Below the pieces are notes generated by a model. It made no database searches, was not told the DNA's origin, and was given only the letters and a program-made list of their open reading frames with translations. The position numbers and the translations under genes were made by a program. 64,000 nt of DNA, taken from Polystyrenella longa. Lineage in GTDB: Bacteria > Planctomycetota > Planctomycetia > Planctomycetales > Planctomycetaceae. This document shows, one piece after another, positions 53,025-63,587 of the stretch; the stretch's first letter is position 1; each line of letters begins with the position of its first letter. The stretch covers positions 3,433,001-3,497,000 of the forward strand of contig NZ_CP036281.1 of NCBI RefSeq assembly GCF_007750395.1, given 5' to 3'.

Positions 53025-54470
53025 ATGCGTCTGCTCGTTCTTTGCTTTGTCGCTGTTCTTTTCACTCTCCCCTCTCTGGCGAAAGGGGCTGAGCAGAAAA
53101 ACGTCTTGTTCATCGCGGTTGACGATCTTCGGGCACAACTCAACTGTTATGGTGACGACCTGGTCATCTCGCCTCATGTCGATCGATTGGCGGCGGAGGG
53201 GACTCTTTTCGAGCGGGCTTACTGCCAGCAGACTGTTTGCAATCCGTCGCGGGCTTCCGTCATGACCGGGCTGCGACCCGATACATTACGCGTCTATGAC
53301 CTGCCGACGCATTTTCGGCAAATTCGCCCTGACGCCGTGACGTTACCGCAATCGATGATGCAGGCAGGGTATTACGCTCGCGATGTCGGCAAGATTTTTC
53401 ACAACTATCGACAGGATGAATATCAAGGGGACCCGACCTCCTGGTCTGTTCCCGCTGTCTTGCATTACGGAACGCACGGAAAAGATTTGCCGCAGGTAGA
53501 AGGAGAGATACCGCCGGATCACTCATCGGCCCTGACGCAGACGAAAAGCCGTGATGTCCCCGACTATGCCTATTACGATGGTCAAGTCGCCGACGCAGCG
53601 ATTAAAGCATTGCATGAAATCAAAGAGCTCGATCAACCCTTTTTCTTTGCAGTCGGGTTCTGGAAACCCCACTTGCCATTCAATGCCCCTAAAAAGTATT
53701 GGGACATGTATAACAGGGAGAACATTCCTGTTCCGGAACACATCGGGCACCCGGAGAACGTGCCTGAGATCGCATTAACCAAATATCGCATTGATGGATC
53801 AAAGAATAATCTGACGACTGAAGATCTGCGAGAGTTGCATCACGGGCACTTGGCCGCGATCACCTACATGGACGCTCAGATTGGTCGCGTGCTGACGGAA
53901 CTCGATTCACTCGATATGCGGAAGAATACGATCATCATTTTTTGGTCCGATCATGGCCTACATATTGGTGAACATGGGTTGTACAGCAAAACGACTCTGT
54001 TTGAACTTGATGCTCAAGTTCCGATGATCATCGCTACCCCCGATCATCCGGGCGGACAACGGACGGACGCTTTGGTGGAACTGCTTGACATTTATCCGAC
54101 GGTCATGGAATTGGCCGGCTTGGAAGTTCCCAATGTGCTGGAAGGGAAGTCACTGGTTCCGCTACTCAATGATCCAGAAACTCCTGGTGCCGCTGCAGCG
54201 ATGACACAGACCCCCCGCCCGAATTATCCTCGGGGTAAGACACCGGAAGTCATGGGTTATTCGATTCGGACGGACACCCTTCGGTACACCGAATGGCGAG
54301 ACCATCTCACTGGTAAGGTTATTGCTCGCGAGTTATACGACCATGAGCAGGATCCTCTGGAAACAGTCAATGCGATTGGAGATGATCTATACGCTGATCA
54401 ACTTCCTGAACTGGAAAAACTTCTGGAAGAGAAAGTTTCCTCAGCACACCCTCCTGAAGCGAAGAAATAG
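53025..54470 (+). CDS. Secreted type I sulfatase, iduronate-2-sulfatase-like
   Basis: 481-residue exported enzyme removing sulfate from sulfated glycans. Signal peptide residues 1-21. Metal pair Asp33/Asp34 in AVDDLRA, formylglycine motif CNPSR at Cys72-Arg76 (cysteine type, needing formylglycine-generating enzyme), then [20 protein letters not shown], and the metal site [17 protein letters not shown]. The overall order with [20 protein letters not shown]-like segment matches iduronate-2-sulfatases. AGGA lies before the ATG at 53025. It is followed 78 bases later by a sialidase and then a transporter on the same strand. The maturase is not in the window. Confidence 0.92.
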
Positions 54471-54548: not shown

Positions 54549-55736
54549 ATGCGAATGACTTCCAACTGTATTGTGCTCGTGTTCGTCACCTTGCTTGGCA
54601 CTCTGCCCGCCTCTTTATTCGGTGAAGAATCGAAACCACAGGCATCACTGAATGTCGAACACAGGATTGCCGCGATTGAATCTGGCCGATTTCATGGTTG
54701 GCCGGCGAATAACGGGGTCTGGCAATGGGGAAACGACATTCTCGTCGGTTACACGCAAGGCGATTTTGAAGTCAAAGATGGACATAACATTTCGGGTCGG
54801 CAGGACTCTCTGCTCTCTTTCAGTGATGACGGTGGCGAGACGTGGGAAATGATCGACCCGGAGAATTTTCTGGATGATGAAAACAAACTGTTCCTGGGTA
54901 AAGGGAAGACAAAGCTAACAGAACCTATCGACTTTACTCATCCAGGATTTGCTTTACGCATCTTCGCGACGGGGTATCATGGAAATGATGATCCCACGGG
55001 AGGTTTCTTTTACTCTTACGATAAAGGCCGCACCTGGAATGGACCGTATGAATTTACGGGACTCGTTGAACATTCAGAGCTGAAAGGAAACCAACTCAAC
55101 CCGCGGACAGATTATCTGGTGCAGAATGGCAACCATGTACTAATTGTCATCTCGGCCCGAGAAGGATCCCGAGGAAAAGCTCGGATGGGCGTCATTGAAT
55201 CAACAGATGGAGGACTGACTTTTGACTTTGTCGCCTGGATCACTCCTGAGGATCCCGACTTCAACGCGATTATGAGCCAGACAGTTCAGCTCTCTGATAA
55301 GGAGTTTGTCTTTTCCTACCGCAAGATTTATCGTGACAGTGACAAACTAAGCACGGTGGAAACGTACAAGTCGACTGATGGCTGTCAAACTTGGAATGTC
55401 CTCAGCACAGTCAAAGTCATGCCGACACATTCGAACCCGCCTGCACTGGTGGCGTTACAAGATGGACGCCTCTGTTGTATTTATGGGGATCGCCAAGTTG
55501 GTGAAATACGCGGACGCTACAGCAGCGATCAAGGGGAAACATGGGGACCAGAATTTATTATTCGAGACGACTTCATGGCCTTGGAGAGCGATCCTGATTC
55601 TCAAGGTCGAATCAATACGGACTGTGGATACCCGCGAATGGTGCAGCGGCCCGACGGTAAGTTGGTCGCCATGTATTACTGGGCCACTGCAGAACATCCC
55701 GAACAGCATATTGCCGTCTCGATCTGGACTCCTTAA
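54549..55736 (+). CDS. Secreted sialidase-family protein with Asp-box repeats
   Basis: 395-residue exported protein with signal peptide (about 1-25). The six-bladed propeller is marked by Asp boxes: SFSDDGGETWEM, YSYDKGRTWNG, ESTDGGLTFDF, KSTDGCQTWNV and YSSDQGETWGP. The first blade has GRFHGWPANNGVWQWGND in place of the usual RIP motif, so the substrate may not be sialic acid; other BNR-propeller hydrolases and rhamnogalacturonan lyases are possible. The C-terminus VAMYYWATAEHPEQHIAVSIW is typical of planctomycete BNR proteins. It sits between a sulfatase and a transporter. Confidence 0.85.
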   Translation: MRMTSNCIVLVFVTLLGTLPASLFGEESKPQASLNVEHRIAAIESGRFHGWPANNGVWQWGNDILVGYTQGDFEVKDGHNISGRQDSLLSFSDDGGETWEMIDPENFLDDENKLFLGKGKTKLTEPIDFTHPGFALRIFATGYHGNDDPTGGFFYSYDKGRTWNGPYEFTGLVEHSELKGNQLNPRTDYLVQNGNHVLIVISAREGSRGKARMGVIESTDGGLTFDFVAWITPEDPDFNAIMSQTVQLSDKEFVFSYRKIYRDSDKLSTVETYKSTDGCQTWNVLSTVKVMPTHSNPPALVALQDGRLCCIYGDRQVGEIRGRYSSDQGETWGPEFIIRDDFMALESDPDSQGRINTDCGYPRMVQRPDGKLVAMYYWATAEHPEQHIAVSIWTP

Positions 55737-58072: not shown

Positions 58073-58522
58073 ATGTTCATCCGTACGCTAACGTCAGTCG
58101 CATTGACGGTGGTCTGTGTGTACTGCGGAATCGGCTCTCCTCTGATAGCCGGAGAATCTTACTATCAATCGTCCCGACGGTATCATTACGACCGTCCGAC
58201 GTACGCTCAAAAGTATCGCCTGAACGATTACGATCGGCGGTCGTCTTACCCTCTGAGCACCGGGAAAAGAAATTACGGATACAACCCCCGCGACTACATG
58301 AAGCCCATCGCACGAATCGACCGTACACGTCGGCCACTCGGTTACCCTTATCGGTCTCCGTATCCGTACTACTATCCTTATTCGTTCTATTACGGGTTCT
58401 ATCCCTACTCGTATTACAACTTCTACCGCATTCCGTGGTACACGAATTACAACTACGGCTATTACCACGACCTCTACCGGCCGAACTACTCGACACCGAA
58501 CAATTACTCGTATGGGTATTGA
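58073..58522 (+). CDS. Small secreted Tyr-rich protein
   Basis: 149-residue exported protein. Signal peptide about residues 1-26, cleavage near PLIAG. The mature chain holds about 35 tyrosines in some 123 residues, with clusters such as YPYYYPYSFYYGFYPYSYY, plus Arg, Pro and Asn, and no Cys. No family is recognised. Tyr-rich low-complexity chains may be cross-linked as dityrosine, form adhesive or structural films, or bind metals; all are guesses. AGGGGAAG lies six bases before the ATG and a good -10 box about 30 bases upstream, so expression may be high. It converges with the ceramidase-like gene, 22 bases away. A plausible envelope partner of the YTV protein. Confidence 0.75.
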   Translation: MFIRTLTSVALTVVCVYCGIGSPLIAGESYYQSSRRYHYDRPTYAQKYRLNDYDRRSSYPLSTGKRNYGYNPRDYMKPIARIDRTRRPLGYPYRSPYPYYYPYSFYYGFYPYSYYNFYRIPWYTNYNYGYYHDLYRPNYSTPNNYSYGY

Positions 58523-58544: not shown

Positions 58545-59933
58545 TCAGTCCTGATCAGAAGTCGTGAGTCCGAGTGCTAATTTCAGTGCTGCCGTCATCT
58601 CGTCGTGGGCCTGTTTGCTAACTTGAGTCCAGTGATGATGATCATCGAATCGCTCGGCAATAGCCTCCCGAGTGGGAAGGTAGCCAGGAGCGCATTCTCC
58701 GTATCCCGGAATCATCAAGAAAGTATCGGGGGCGAGTTCTTGAGCTTCCAATTGATAACCCACAAATGCCTCGGCTGGTAATACAAACCATTTTGCATTG
58801 CCAAAGTCGAGTACCGGAAGATCGATCGGTTCCTCGCGACTGACACGGTTCAACCAGCTGATTCCCAGTGCGGCATCAATTCGTTGCGACAGCGAAGTCT
58901 GAGGATCGGCCAGTTTCGCTTCAAATTCGGAGATCGAATACCCAGCGGCATCTCGCGGTGATAACTCGAACTGATGTGCTTTGAATTCGAGGTTATCCAG
59001 AGGATAAGTCTTCGTTTCTTCCCACGCGTCCTGCATTCCCTGCTCTAATCGATTCGCCAGGGCCACACGACTGTCGTAGTCGCCTGCGTTGTATTTGCTG
59101 ACGGTCGTATCGCCGCTACAGCCTGAGCAATAGATTTGGAATACGCCGGGAACGGCTTCCTGTCGCTGCTGTCGAGCCATACCGACAAAGTCAGGAGAGA
59201 CTTCGCCTCGGCAATAGTAGCTCATCGGATGCACTGAATAAGTACTGACAGCCACCACGGGCATTTCACCATTCCAGAAACTGATTGTCTTCAGAAAAGG
59301 ATCGATCAAACCGACCGGCTGATTTCGGATCGTTTCGTTCGCGGAAAAACTTCCTCGAGCGTAACTGTACTTTCCACTGGAGTCTTTCACACGGCGGTTG
59401 CTGGCGACATCCACTACTTTCGCTTTACCCAAACCGTAATGGGTCACGGGGACGGCGCGATCGAGGCTGGATTTCACTTCAGCGACGATGTTGTCGAGGC
59501 ACTCTTCCTGAAAATTGAGGTCAATCATCAGTCCTTCGTATCCGAAACGAGTCAGCACTTCCTGAGCTTCATTGTCAGAGAGGGGAGTATCGTGCTGATG
59601 AACCGAGGTTAACATTACCCGCTCACGCGTCGTTCCGGCTGCTTCTGCAATTCGGTCGCGCCAGAGATCGTATGACTTATTACGAATTTCGCACCAGTCC
59701 ACTGCCGCAACCACCACAGGTTCGTCCGTCCCCTGTAAGACCATTCCTTTGATCCAGATCGGCGCGAGCACCTCTTTGGCGGGGCCGCACAGACTCGCTA
59801 TTGTCGGATGACCAATCGGTGGGGTCACATCGACTTGAAATGTGGAGACGGTAAATTCACCTGCTCTGCAGACTGGTGCAGAACTCATTCCCCACGAACA
59901 GACGACGGTGATCAGAAGGCAGACTCGATACAT
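58545..59933 (-). CDS. Neutral/alkaline ceramidase-like secreted hydrolase (second member)
   Basis: 462-residue exported hydrolase. The ATG at 59933 has AAAGGT before it and leads a signal peptide (1-24, ending CRA); an earlier in-frame start at 60002 would put 23 non-hydrophobic residues before it. The mature N-terminus, VSTFQVDVTPPIGHP, and the metal motifs SVHQHDTP and STYSVHPMSY with CSGCSGDTTV in place of the ceramidase GDxSP loop mark the ceramidase N-domain family, more divergent than the gene at 4498. The substrate is unknown. It follows the NHL protein gene by 88 bases on the same strand, probably one operon. Confidence 0.8.
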   Translation of the reverse strand: MYRVCLLITVVCSWGMSSAPVCRAGEFTVSTFQVDVTPPIGHPTIASLCGPAKEVLAPIWIKGMVLQGTDEPVVVAAVDWCEIRNKSYDLWRDRIAEAAGTTRERVMLTSVHQHDTPLSDNEAQEVLTRFGYEGLMIDLNFQEECLDNIVAEVKSSLDRAVPVTHYGLGKAKVVDVASNRRVKDSSGKYSYARGSFSANETIRNQPVGLIDPFLKTISFWNGEMPVVAVSTYSVHPMSYYCRGEVSPDFVGMARQQRQEAVPGVFQIYCSGCSGDTTVSKYNAGDYDSRVALANRLEQGMQDAWEETKTYPLDNLEFKAHQFELSPRDAAGYSISEFEAKLADPQTSLSQRIDAALGISWLNRVSREEPIDLPVLDFGNAKWFVLPAEAFVGYQLEAQELAPDTFLMIPGYGECAPGYLPTREAIAERFDDHHHWTQVSKQAHDEMTAALKLALGLTTSDQD

Positions 59934-60021
59934 CAAACAGACCTTTATCCAGTGAAGGCGAATATTGAACGTAAGGGCAGAGAGAGCCAATCCAGACTCC
60001 AATCTATTGATGATAGAGCAA

Positions 60022-61086
60022 TTACTCTTCCGTTTCCGAGCGTTTCTTAACTGGGACGAACTTCATCGCTTTCTCGTCATAAATGTCACCCACATACAGG
60101 TTTCCATTTTTGTCTTCCACGATGCAATGAACTCCAACTGCTGCTCCCGGTTTAATCGATTCCCGGTTATTTCGATCCCCCAAGGGAATAGTCCAAACCT
60201 GCTCTAACCGACCATTAGTATTAAATCGGACGAACATCTGGTCTTTGAATTCTGGATAAGCCCCTTTACGTTTCCACCAGTGAGGCGATGAACCGCAGAT
60301 CCAGAGATCTCCTGCCGCATTGATCGACATCCCCCAGGGCATGATGATGTTCGACCATTCGTCGAGCAGTTCCCCGTCCTGGTTAAAGATCATAACCCGT
60401 CCACTGTTACGATCCGCAACATATAGCTTGCCATCTTTGTCCATCACAATCGCGTGCGGTAAGACGAACTGGCCACGCCCAGTTCCATAAGAACCCCACT
60501 CTTTAATGTACTGACCGTTTTTATCGAAGTGCACAATGCGGCGATTGCCATAACCGTCGGTCACAAAGATGTCCCCATTCGGGCCGATCACCATGTCCGT
60601 TGGCATGTTGAAGTGAGTTTTATCTTCGCCTTTGACGTTTTTCTCACCCAACTCCATAAGCAGTTTTCCCTCGGGAGTGTATTTCTGCACGATGTGCAGC
60701 CCGAAATCTGCCACCCAGATACTACCTTCATCATCAATCCGGATATGGTGAGGATCCTTGAAATCTCCTGCCCCCCAAGTCCGGACAAATTCTCCGTCCG
60801 GTGTATAACATTGGACAGGATCATCCCCTTTATTGAACAGCCAGATGTTCTCTTCTTTATCCTGAGCCATTCCAGAGACCCATCCGAACTTGGCGAGGTT
60901 ATCGGGGCGTTTTGGCCAGCTTTCATCAATGTCGTATTCCGTGATGAGCGGCTCCTCGGCGAAACCGGGATACTGCGCCTGAGCCGATGAGGCCACCCAA
61001 AACACCCAAGCTACTACGAGCAAAGGCAATCTTACAGGCTGGTTGGAGAAGTGACGTAAAACGTGGCTAATCGGTAAATTCAGCAT
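60022..61086 (-). CDS. Secreted NHL-repeat beta-propeller protein
   Basis: 354-residue exported protein starting at the ATG at 61086 with AAAGG before it. The signal peptide ends in SSAQA, so the mature chain would begin with Gln (QYPGF). Six propeller blades follow, with NHL-like units: GDFKDPHHIRIDDEGSIWVADFG, NMPTDMVIGPNGDIFVTDGYGNRRIVHFD (read in pieces), and VLPHAIVMDKDGKLYVADRNSGRVMIF. Family relatives include the peptidyl-amidoglycolate lyase domain, but its catalytic residues were not checked. First gene of a two-gene operon with a ceramidase-like hydrolase. Confidence 0.85.
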   Translation of the reverse strand: MLNLPISHVLRHFSNQPVRLPLLVVAWVFWVASSAQAQYPGFAEEPLITEYDIDESWPKRPDNLAKFGWVSGMAQDKEENIWLFNKGDDPVQCYTPDGEFVRTWGAGDFKDPHHIRIDDEGSIWVADFGLHIVQKYTPEGKLLMELGEKNVKGEDKTHFNMPTDMVIGPNGDIFVTDGYGNRRIVHFDKNGQYIKEWGSYGTGRGQFVLPHAIVMDKDGKLYVADRNSGRVMIFNQDGELLDEWSNIIMPWGMSINAAGDLWICGSSPHWWKRKGAYPEFKDQMFVRFNTNGRLEQVWTIPLGDRNNRESIKPGAAVGVHCIVEDKNGNLYVGDIYDEKAMKFVPVKKRSETEE

Positions 61087-61721: not shown

Positions 61722-63587
61722 ATGGTCCGTTTCATGCGAATGCTCGCTTGCATGGGCTTGATGGTCGGCATGACGTCCGCCTCAGCTCTCGCTGGCGATT
61801 GCGGTTGTGAAAAAACCGCCTGCGACTCTGGTTGTGCTACAGCCTGCCAGACCGCACCCGCATGTGCACCTGCTTTCCAAGAAGTTGAGTGCACAGTCAT
61901 GGTTCCTCAAACCGTGGTCGAAAAACGCACTGTCAAGTGCACCGAAATGCAGCAAGAAGAGCGTCAACGTACAGTAACTTACTACGAGCGCGTCCCTCGT
62001 ACAGAAGTTCGTACTCGTGAAGTATGCTACACGGAACGCGAAGATCGTACCCGTGAAGAAACTTATACGGTTAACGTTCCAACTTGGAGTGAAGTCGAAC
62101 AGTCTTACACTGTTATGGTTCCCGTTGCTGAAACACGCACCGGAACTCGCAAAGTAAGTCGACCTGTATGGAGTGAAGTCGAACAGACTTACACCGTCAT
62201 GGTTCCTGTTGCTGAAACTCGTACCGGAACTCGCAAAGTCAGCCGACCTGTATGGAGTGAAGTCGAACAGACTTACACCGTCATGGTTCCTGTTGCTGAA
62301 ACTCGCACCGGTACTCGCAACGTTTGCAAAGCTGTCTGGCGTGACGTCGAACAGACTTACACCGTTATGGTTCCTCACACCGAAACTCGTTCGGCCACCA
62401 AACAGGTTTCACGACCTGTCTGGAGCGACGTTGAGTACACTTACACTGTGAATGTTCCTGTTACCGAAACTCGCACCGGAACGAAAAAAGTTTGCAAACC
62501 TGTCTGGAGCGAAGTCGAACAGACTTACACCGTCATGGTTCCTCAAACTGAAACACAGACTCGCACTCGCATGGTTTCAACCTGCGTTCCTGTGACCAAA
62601 ACTCGTACTGTTTGTCAGGACCAGGGTCACTGGGAAGAGCAAGTTGTCAGCAACGGCTGCAACGCTGGCAGCGGAAGCTGCAACAGCGGATGCAACACTG
62701 GCTGTAACAGCGGATGCGACACTGGCTGCAACAGCTGCGACAGTGGTTGCGGAGTCGCCACCACAACTTGCAAAGTCTGGGTTCCTAACGTTGTTCAGTC
62801 TGAAGTGGAATACACCGCTTACGAACGTCAGTGCGTTGAAGAATCTTACGAATGTCAGGTTACTGTCTGCAAACCTGAAACTCGCACCAAGACTGTCAAA
62901 GTCTGCGAATACGTAACTGAAGAAGTCGCTTACGACTACCAGGTTACTGTCTGCAAAGCAGAAACCCGTACAGGAACTAAGAAAGTCTGCGAATACGTGA
63001 CTGAAGAAGTCGCTTACGACTACCAGGTTACCGTTTGCAAACCAGAAACCCGTACTTGCACCAAGAAAGTGTGCGAATACGTGACTGAACAAGTTGCTTA
63101 CGAATACCAGGTTACTGTTTGCAAACCTGAAACTCGTACCTGCACCAAGAAAGTGTGCGAGTACGTTTGTGAAGAAGTTCCTTACGAATACCAGGTCACT
63201 GTCTGCAAACCTGAAACTCGTACCTGCACTAAGAAAGTGTGCGAGTACGTTTGTGAAGAAGTTCCTTACGAATACCAGGTTACTGTCTGCAAACCTGAAA
63301 CTCGTACCTGCACCAAGAAAGTGTGTGAGTACGTTGCTGAAGAACGCACTCGTACCTGTAACTACACTGTCTGTGTTCCAAAAACTCGTACTGAAGAGTA
63401 CGAAGTAACGACCTACGACTGTGTTGCTAAAGAACGCACCGAAAACTACACCGTGTGTGTTCCAGTTTGCGTCGAAAAAGAAATCGATGTTCAGGTTTGC
63501 CGAATGGTTCCTCAGACTGTTACCCAACAGGTTCCAGTTTGTGGTGGCTGTGGCACTGCCAGCAACAGCGGTTGCGGATGCAACTAA
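61722..63587 (+). CDS. Secreted Cys-rich YTV-repeat protein, likely cell-wall structural
   Basis: 621-residue exported protein. The ATG at 61722 has AAGGAG ten bases before it; a longer frame starts at 61662 without one. After the signal peptide (cleavage near ALAG) and a Cys cluster comes array A, six 28-residue YTV-type units (residues about 122-289) of the form VWSEVEQTYTVMVP, then ETRTGTRKV. A Gly/Asn/Ser/Cys hinge with CNSGCNTGCNSGCDTGC (about 311-350) follows. Array B, six further 28-residue units (about 378-545), reads YQVTVCKPETRTCTKKVCEYV with up to four Cys each. The C-terminus repeats Cys motifs. YTV (PF07639-type) proteins are known from planctomycetes and were linked to the proteinaceous wall; the bipartite plan here is unusual. 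Confidence 0.9.
   Translation: MVRFMRMLACMGLMVGMTSASALAGDCGCEKTACDSGCATACQTAPACAPAFQEVECTVMVPQTVVEKRTVKCTEMQQEERQRTVTYYERVPRTEVRTREVCYTEREDRTREETYTVNVPTWSEVEQSYTVMVPVAETRTGTRKVSRPVWSEVEQTYTVMVPVAETRTGTRKVSRPVWSEVEQTYTVMVPVAETRTGTRNVCKAVWRDVEQTYTVMVPHTETRSATKQVSRPVWSDVEYTYTVNVPVTETRTGTKKVCKPVWSEVEQTYTVMVPQTETQTRTRMVSTCVPVTKTRTVCQDQGHWEEQVVSNGCNAGSGSCNSGCNTGCNSGCDTGCNSCDSGCGVATTTCKVWVPNVVQSEVEYTAYERQCVEESYECQVTVCKPETRTKTVKVCEYVTEEVAYDYQVTVCKAETRTGTKKVCEYVTEEVAYDYQVTVCKPETRTCTKKVCEYVTEQVAYEYQVTVCKPETRTCTKKVCEYVCEEVPYEYQVTVCKPETRTCTKKVCEYVCEEVPYEYQVTVCKPETRTCTKKVCEYVAEERTRTCNYTVCVPKTRTEEYEVTTYDCVAKERTENYTVCVPVCVEKEIDVQVCRMVPQTVTQQVPVCGGCGTASNSGCGCN
62085..62588 (+). repeat. Array A: six 84-bp units in the YTV gene
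   Basis: TGG of each unit falls at 62085, 62169, 62253, 62337, 62421 and 62505, exactly 84 bases apart; units 2 and 3 are almost identical at DNA level. Codes for Cys-poor YTVMVP units. Confidence 0.9.
62853..63356 (+). repeat. Array B: six 84-bp Cys-rich units in the YTV gene
   Basis: The codon before CAGGT(T/C)AC falls at 62853, 62937, 63021, 63105, 63189 and 63273, again exactly 84 bases apart. Codes for VTVCKPETRT units; Cys per unit rises along the array. Confidence 0.9.

Follow-up and report, generated by a model that had tools for sequence, protein, structure and literature searches.

The window analysed here is a 64,000-nucleotide stretch of Polystyrenella longa DNA (contig NZ_CP036281.1, positions 3,433,001 to 3,497,000), taken from a single-contig genome of 6.1 Mb. 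On its plus strand, positions 61722-63587 form a confirmed open reading frame whose 621-residue product, with 53 Cys residues, is a member of the already known YTV family (PF07639). The protein consists mainly of two repeat-bearing arms, A and B, joined by a Cys-rich loop. Our analysis of this protein and its relatives showed that the two arms are matched in length, change by insertions and deletions (indels) at mirrored places, are complementary to each other in a protein-specific manner and keep an uninterrupted alternation of residues, and that these properties are spread over the family. We consider it likely that the YTV protein is exported and folds as one giant two-stranded antiparallel β hairpin; its place in the wall and its function we infer.

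According to the proposed model, the protein, whose N terminus is signal-like as judged by eye alone, would be exported. Arm A (residues 52-309) would run out, the Cys-rich loop (310-347) would turn the chain and arm B (348-605) would run back, placing residue i opposite residue 657-i within one chain. At about 0.33 nm per residue, the resulting rod would be ~80 nm long. The repeats would be the regular pattern of the ribbon, with one face made mainly of Val, Tyr, Arg and Lys and the other mainly of Thr, Pro, Cys, Trp and Met. Because both strands need equal length, a gain or loss in one arm would persist only if the other arm underwent the mirror-image change, and a mismatch of a whole unit would be tolerable because the pattern stays in phase. 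The Cys residues, which are concentrated in the tip and in both basal tails, would be available to link adjacent rods into a protein wall.

Relatives were collected by scanning named genomes (20 loci) and 99 genomes related to the window's own, 58 of which had a match. Their arms were delimited by four conserved blocks: the start of arm A, QDQGHWE at its end, VWVPN at the start of arm B and VQVCxM at its end. A first set of anchors was misplaced in divergent relatives, gave many mismatches and was replaced; the profiles used here were rebuilt from the 33 members that matched under that first set, a choice that could favour matching, although the profiles are confined to the anchor blocks and leave out the arm lengths. 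Three sequences letter-identical to others (L041, L047 and L051, identical to L011, L020 and L027) and a 121-residue fragment (L027) were left out before counting. With the rebuilt profiles 86 proteins were measurable, and 63 of them, including the window protein, were well anchored, that is, all four blocks scored at least 11 bits.

The difference between the lengths of arms A and B was identical to the residue in 57 of these 63 proteins, which fall into 14 length classes of 98-294 residues. Between its anchors, the window protein has 238 residues in arm A and 226 in arm B, exactly the family difference of 12 (deviation 0). The 57 matched proteins represent 45 clusters at 70% identity, and shuffling the arm B lengths gave a mean of 6.7 matches and a maximum of 18 in 20,000 trials. 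All 14 arm lengths are even numbers. On a rough tree of the anchor blocks (113 columns), parsimony required ~30 changes of length class versus 5 changes between match and mismatch. Additionally, where the main period is not 28 residues it is the same in both arms, namely 44/44 (L073, L088), 46/46 (L092), 32/32 (L096 and L030) or 16/16 (L029, L098 and L099), L029 and L030 being paralogs in the window's own genome and the period being measured separately per arm and some arms being unmeasurable. In this earlier period survey the hinge was set by a loose motif that was wrong in a few proteins (such as L060, L061, L069 and L074); seven proteins had no hinge call and seven had arms that were too short. 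The main periods of the family (14, 16, 28, 30, 32, 44, 46, 62 and others) resemble sums of half-units 14 and 16 residues long, lengths that the twist of a two-stranded ribbon might dictate.

The positions of the indels also follow an antiparallel arrangement. For relatives differing by at most 60 residues, by other than multiples of 28, we located the best single-gap site in each arm and retained the 475 of 500 pairs whose arms were both at least 30% identical; these pairs share members and are not independent. Counted from the base, the gap sites of the two arms had a median separation of 7 residues under an antiparallel arrangement and of 81 under a parallel one, and lay within 15 residues of each other in 334 of the 475 pairs versus 37. 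A general gapped aligner, tried for 2-residue indels, was not useful: among 82 pairs, one had a single gap in both arms, at sites 13 residues apart.

Facing residues were counted in the 57 matched proteins, and pair scores, one-unit-away counts and residue-pair enrichments in 55 of them, since L021 and L071 run off their frames. We scanned 85 antiparallel registers, counting offsets from the anchors and taking as offset 0 the value given by the AlphaFold2 model of the window protein (i+j=657). Facing pairs of like charge were rarest at offset 0 (0.0037), followed by offset +2 (0.0062). One unit away, their frequency rose to 0.0265-0.0279, which indicates that each unit fits its own partner better. 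As a control against a mere family consensus, arms were swapped with those of relatives of the same length class; like-charge pairs then increased from 32 to 134 and opposite-charge pairs decreased from 552 to 433. With partners less than 70% identical, available for 45 proteins, the real protein had fewer like charges in 42 and more in 1, and more opposite charges in 31 and fewer in 11. Parallel pairing was discarded, its best net opposite charge being 0.027 versus 0.060 for antiparallel pairing. Several facing pairs were strongly enriched over an expectation from pooled composition that ignores the face of the ribbon: Met-Pro (175 seen, 16.6 expected), Tyr-Arg (179 and 33.5), Arg-Tyr (201 and 56.4) and Pro-Cys (185 and 37.3). 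Cys never faced Cys at offset 0 (0 of 10,586 pairs), where partner swaps predict 18.2 in 9,604 pairs. In this register, the result speaks against disulfides across the hairpin, the first cross-linking idea, and makes disulfides between rods the simplest reading.

The alternation of residues along the arms is nearly strict. In a common register, all 1094 prolines of the matched proteins (563 and 531 in the two arms) occupy positions of one parity, Val lies mostly at the opposite parity (1821 to 141 and 1870 to 99 in the two arms), and Gly in arm A is distributed 189 to 1. Since the alternation hardly slips over up to ~300 residues, there is little room for ordinary turns. In a two-stranded ribbon, prolines are tolerated where the backbone NH points away from the partner strand; the one-parity prolines presumably mark the sites whose NH points outward.

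The same layout was found well beyond the proteins on which the scores were built. When one length class was withheld from its training, a pair score recovered the exact register in 55 of 55 proteins, a recovery that is helped by the full overlap of equal arms and is thus supportive rather than independent. In 31 proteins outside the training set, including the three other YTV genes of the same genome, the mirror axis scored above 10 shuffles each. In 20 further YTV proteins, taken from the strongest Pfam matches (18 from other families of the class, and L105 and L118 from the window's family), it scored above 5 shuffles in all 20, and the prolines of the paired arms lay at one parity in all 20. 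The null of these anchor-free scans, composition shuffles that destroy the repeats as well, is a weak one. Of the 20 further proteins, 13 have one top lag common to both arms, 6 have top lags that are different multiples of 16, and in 1 (L116) the arms disagree. The longest paired arms have 348 residues (L103). In near-perfect repeats, an axis one unit away was almost as good (87.1 vs 83.8 in L017, and likewise in L100, L102, L104 and L107), so the axis of those proteins is uncertain by a unit.

The three other YTV genes of the window genome are L029, L030 and L031, two of which have a basic period of 16 residues, not 28, in both arms, which suggests rods of different kinds in one cell. Arm length varies widely, both from relative to relative and between the four YTV genes that this genome carries. 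In another relative (L072, G051:C1:746000-750500), an insert of ~240 residues rich in Cys, Gly and Met (frame residues 342-583) seemingly lies in the hairpin tip; the tip thus seems able to carry more than a loop.

Structure prediction was consistent with a hairpin. The AlphaFold2 model of the window protein, computed with 19 relatives, has strands at residues 52-300, 303-309, 348-354 and 357-605, whose ends sum to 657 throughout; the two main strands have 249 residues each, and the pairing is deduced from the strand ends. Confidence reaches a predicted local distance difference test score (pLDDT) of roughly 65-77 near base and tip. For L028, whose arms are shorter (98-residue class) and less repetitive, the mean pLDDT was 67.1 and the predicted TM-score (pTM) 0.26; ten-residue blocks of its strands scored 73-89, but 48-60 in the mutually facing segments 81-110 and 241-270. 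The ends of its main strands sum to 346, the same anchor offset as in the window protein.

Several observations weigh against a single-chain hairpin in this register. The window model as a whole has low confidence (mean pLDDT 52.4, pTM 0.21, 344 of 621 residues below 50), AlphaFold2 may produce long hairpins for any sequence that alternates, and the window protein and L028 are each a row in the other's alignment. Length matching alone leaves the register unfixed, offset 0 being taken from AlphaFold2; net opposite charge is highest at offset +2 (0.0595) and second at 0 (0.0503), and at +2 there is no avoidance of facing Cys pairs (8 seen, 8.2 expected). Six of the 63 well-anchored proteins are mismatched: L017, L043, L056 and L086 by +28, L059 by +56 and L085 by -1. 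L085 is truncated, its first block running off the contig, and the five whole-unit exceptions all come from draft assemblies of many contigs and are possibly repeats collapsed in assembly. Among the 23 proteins with weaker anchors, 6 match and 17 do not as judged by the anchors; in most of these 17, at least one anchor is at chance level. The agreement of periods is unclean in short or little-repeated arms (L028, L068, L082, L087, L089), and the relatives are not independent of each other. Finally, a bare ribbon would leave both of its faces exposed.

The distribution of Cys suggests how such rods might be joined. Across the family, Cys density is highest in the tip (0.226) and the C-terminal tail (0.211), followed by the N-terminal tail (0.153, counted over at most 45 residues ahead of arm A and perhaps including some of the signal peptide); in arms A and B it is 0.031 and 0.069, respectively. 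Disulfides would probably join neighbouring rods, and cross-linking between rods through array B is plausible. Published work links YTV proteins to the wall. In the parts of these papers available to us, two YTV Cys-rich proteins were top-scoring in a wall preparation of Tuwongella immobilis (PMC8567305), YTV proteins were called major wall constituents in Gemmata obscuriglobus (PMC5287468), the wall of R. baltica was described as a protein sacculus with disulfide bonds (PMC2754498), and the YTV domain was mentioned as having been suggested to regulate wall rigidity via its Cys residues (PMC10632474). It is possible, if doubtful, that the hairpin is right and that its role is that of a surface fibre, stalk or spacer instead of a cross-linked wall layer. 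The rod shape with a Cys-rich tip and base would suit such a role, as would the wide variation in arm length described above; the top rank of YTV proteins in the T. immobilis wall preparation and their standing as major wall constituents in G. obscuriglobus argue against it. The T. immobilis fractionation, as far as the consulted part of the report goes, favours it: both YTV proteins were found in the Tris/SDS-soluble fraction only, the extraction passage gives 2% SDS and names no reducing agent, and the SDS-insoluble pellet was fibrous and probably consisted of wall fragments (PMC8567305). At least part of these two proteins was therefore not locked by disulfides, a result that does not fit a wholly disulfide-locked insoluble network and weighs against the cross-linked wall as we propose it.

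A different question is whether the two paired arms belong to the same molecule. Pairing of A with B in the register described, but between molecules, as a swapped dimer or a head-to-tail fibre, would turn strand pairing into polymerisation. Length matching, mirrored indels and partner swaps show which residues face each other, not the identity of the chain, and thus suit this arrangement equally. We nevertheless regard it as unlikely: the linking loop need not be long (it has 38 residues in the window protein), the anchors flanking the tip start only 24 residues apart in L053 versus 57 in the window protein, and AlphaFold2 pairs the arms right up to the loop (303-309 with 348-354), so that one chain is the simpler solution.

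The repeats themselves had been described previously from the sequence. Tandem Repeats Finder detected a period of 84 bp in both arrays, at 62085-62543 (5.5 copies) in array A and at 62845-63344 (6.0 copies) in array B, and identity at a lag of 28 residues was 0.68 and 0.84, respectively, compared with at most 0.26 at lags of 5-89 that are not multiples of 28. Both arrays are thus confirmed as six units of 28 residues, or 84 bp, as the preliminary description had stated, and the Cys-rich hinge with CNSG/CNTG-like repeats that it had placed between them is also found, at about 62649-62762, with 7 Cys in the 28 residues from 317. Array A is nearly free of Cys, as had been noted (0, 0, 1, 0, 1 and 1 in units 1-6, 3 in all). 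Array B has 3, 2, 3, 4, 4 and 3 per unit (19 in all); the reported maximum of four holds, and the reported rise along the array does so only in part, the counts dipping, rising and falling. The alternating pattern extends past both arrays towards the protein ends, over the full length of both arms. These outer stretches, which carry much of the evidence, have in part a spacing of 30 residues, the longer-spaced part opening arm A and closing arm B.

Membership of the YTV family, also claimed in the preliminary description, rests on a whole-protein score for PF07639 of 131.3 bits (E 1.2e-38, nine stretches; curated cut-off 21 bits), with the matches in array A (six stretches) and the C-terminal part. 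Array B alone gave no PF07639 match at E≤1 and reached the cut-off of no other Pfam family. GBS_Bsp-like and OB_DEPS-1 appeared as weak Pfam matches below their own cut-offs and were rejected as identities. Profile-profile comparison of the window protein's own B units with its A units, with B set to the best of 28 phases (z 5.9 vs the others), was gap-free, with a probability of 95.8% for one unit and 97.7% for two. Since B units align without gaps to A units, array B can be seen as a diverged YTV array, and on this basis both arrays are counted as YTV units in spite of the silence of Pfam on B. The two unit types very probably descend from one unit, as had been suggested. PF07639 was found in 102 of 247 genomes drawn from the phylum, all 102 in the window's class, and in 0 of 14 control genomes, the extent of the survey outside the phylum.

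Beyond this common origin, the preliminary description had proposed independent expansion of the two arrays, with a Cys-poor, filament-forming A, a disulfide-cross-linking B and a hinge between them. The Cys load of 3 versus 19 and the homology of the units agree with such a division. We consider it very improbable as a whole: arm lengths co-vary to the residue in 57 of 63 proteins, the indel sites change together at mirrored places, and arm A is better matched in charge to its own arm B than to the arms B of relatives, so that the expansion was not independent and the arms look like paired strands of one ribbon. Hardly more credible is a β-solenoid or a chain of small β domains in each arm, with lengths equalised by a shared template or fixed-size lattice; such a common ruler would also yield equal lengths, but not the strict alternation across whole arms (Pro 1094 of 1094, arm A Gly 189 to 1), nor the protein-specific complementarity, which needs contact between the arms, and the strand breaks of the low-confidence AlphaFold2 model lie only beside the tip.

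The features of the gene and its product are given in Table 1. If the protein is a hairpin, the C- and N-terminal tails would share one end of the rod, its base.

Table 1. Location of the YTV gene's features in the window and in its 621-residue product
Feature	Residues	Position	Strand	Basis and remarks
Signal-peptide-like segment	1-25	61722..61796	+	Read by eye; AlphaFold2 helix 2-15
N-terminal tail, Cys-rich	26-51	61797..61874	+	6 Cys within 25-51
Arm A	52-309	61875..62648	+	Proposed strand 1 (base, six-unit array, cap); AlphaFold2 strands 52-300, 303-309; anchors, register
Array A, six 84-bp units	121-288	62082..62585	+	Tandem Repeats Finder, lag identity, PF07639 matches
Tip loop (previously the hinge), Cys-rich	310-347	62649..62762	+	8 Cys; loop in AlphaFold2
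Arm B	348-605	62763..63536	+	Proposed strand 2, antiparallel to arm A (i+j=657); AlphaFold2 strands 348-354, 357-605; facing charges favour the same offset
Array B, six 84-bp units, Cys-rich	373-540	62838..63341	+	Tandem Repeats Finder, lag identity; homologous to array A units
C-terminal tail, Cys-rich, and stop	606-621	63537..63587	+	4 Cys

No operon partner of the YTV gene was evident among its neighbours. The minus strand upstream of it encodes an NHL-repeat protein (60025-61086) and a protein that no Pfam family matches (58548-60002); a sulfatase (53025-54467) and a BNR-repeat protein (54549-55733) are located farther upstream, and the downstream neighbour is an 828-residue protein. On the plus strand, 58073-58522 encodes a 149-residue protein with a signal-like start that is very rich in Tyr and Arg and has no Pfam match at E≤0.1; it is possibly another envelope protein. 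A 309-residue Cys-rich protein is encoded at L120 4542-5471 on the minus strand, ~4.3 kb downstream of the YTV gene in the same genome. It begins with a signal-like segment, carries GCPEP/GCPEA repeats and a run of CNSC/CNGGC, and is a candidate wall partner. Among the relatives, L024 comes from a metagenome-assembled genome (MAG) labelled Candidatus Kuenenia stuttgartiensis, yet it encodes a protein sharing 96% identity with the one from a Planctomycetaceae MAG (L019); either the label or the binning could be mistaken.

YTV proteins are characteristic of the planctomycete wall. In the literature that we searched, which did not include the main YTV paper, we found no account of the role of their repeats and no statement that these form two length-matched strands; within that scope, the novelty is that the two arrays are locked to each other in length and most likely represent the strands of a single giant hairpin. 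Extending this to the whole family, we lean, with less assurance than for the window protein, towards regarding YTV proteins as a new class of fibrous proteins: single-chain two-stranded β ribbons with strands of ~60-350 residues (~20 to >100 nm), whose arrays would evolve in lockstep as every residue has a partner, whose Cys residues would be kept from facing each other and whose rods would be riveted into the wall. If true, they would provide a concrete building block of the wall whose length can be read from the gene, an extreme architecture with strands of ~250 residues in the window protein, and a programmable rod that grows by ~9 nm per mirrored unit added. They would also be a rare case in which the two arrays of one gene are forced to expand jointly, making structural coevolution visible by the counting of residues. 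The design appears common to a family of planctomycete wall proteins, and its confirmation by experiment would establish a new way to build a protein fibre.

Regarding known systems, the closest are the other YTV proteins, with which the window protein shares the curated family score and Cys-rich tandem repeats, and which show the mirror axis in all cases scanned. Among solved structures, no sequence relative was found in the PDB at E≤1 and Foldseek gave no match at E≤0.001; the lack of matches does not make the fold new. The best Foldseek matches of the window model were the hairpins of lysenin-type β-barrel pores (E 5.7e-3; identity to lysenin 11-13%, TM-score at most 0.14 among the matches listed), and VIA-align over 169 chains gave a best Z of 2.3. 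The hairpins of pore-forming β-barrels are much shorter and complete a membrane barrel. G5 was absent from the Pfam matches of the window protein at E≤1. The G5-E repeats of SasG and Aap form long, thin extracellular β rods with little core, and the proposed YTV rod would likewise be a long, thin β structure; in contrast to the latter, the SasG/Aap rods are built of consecutive small domains along one chain, with no mirrored arms.

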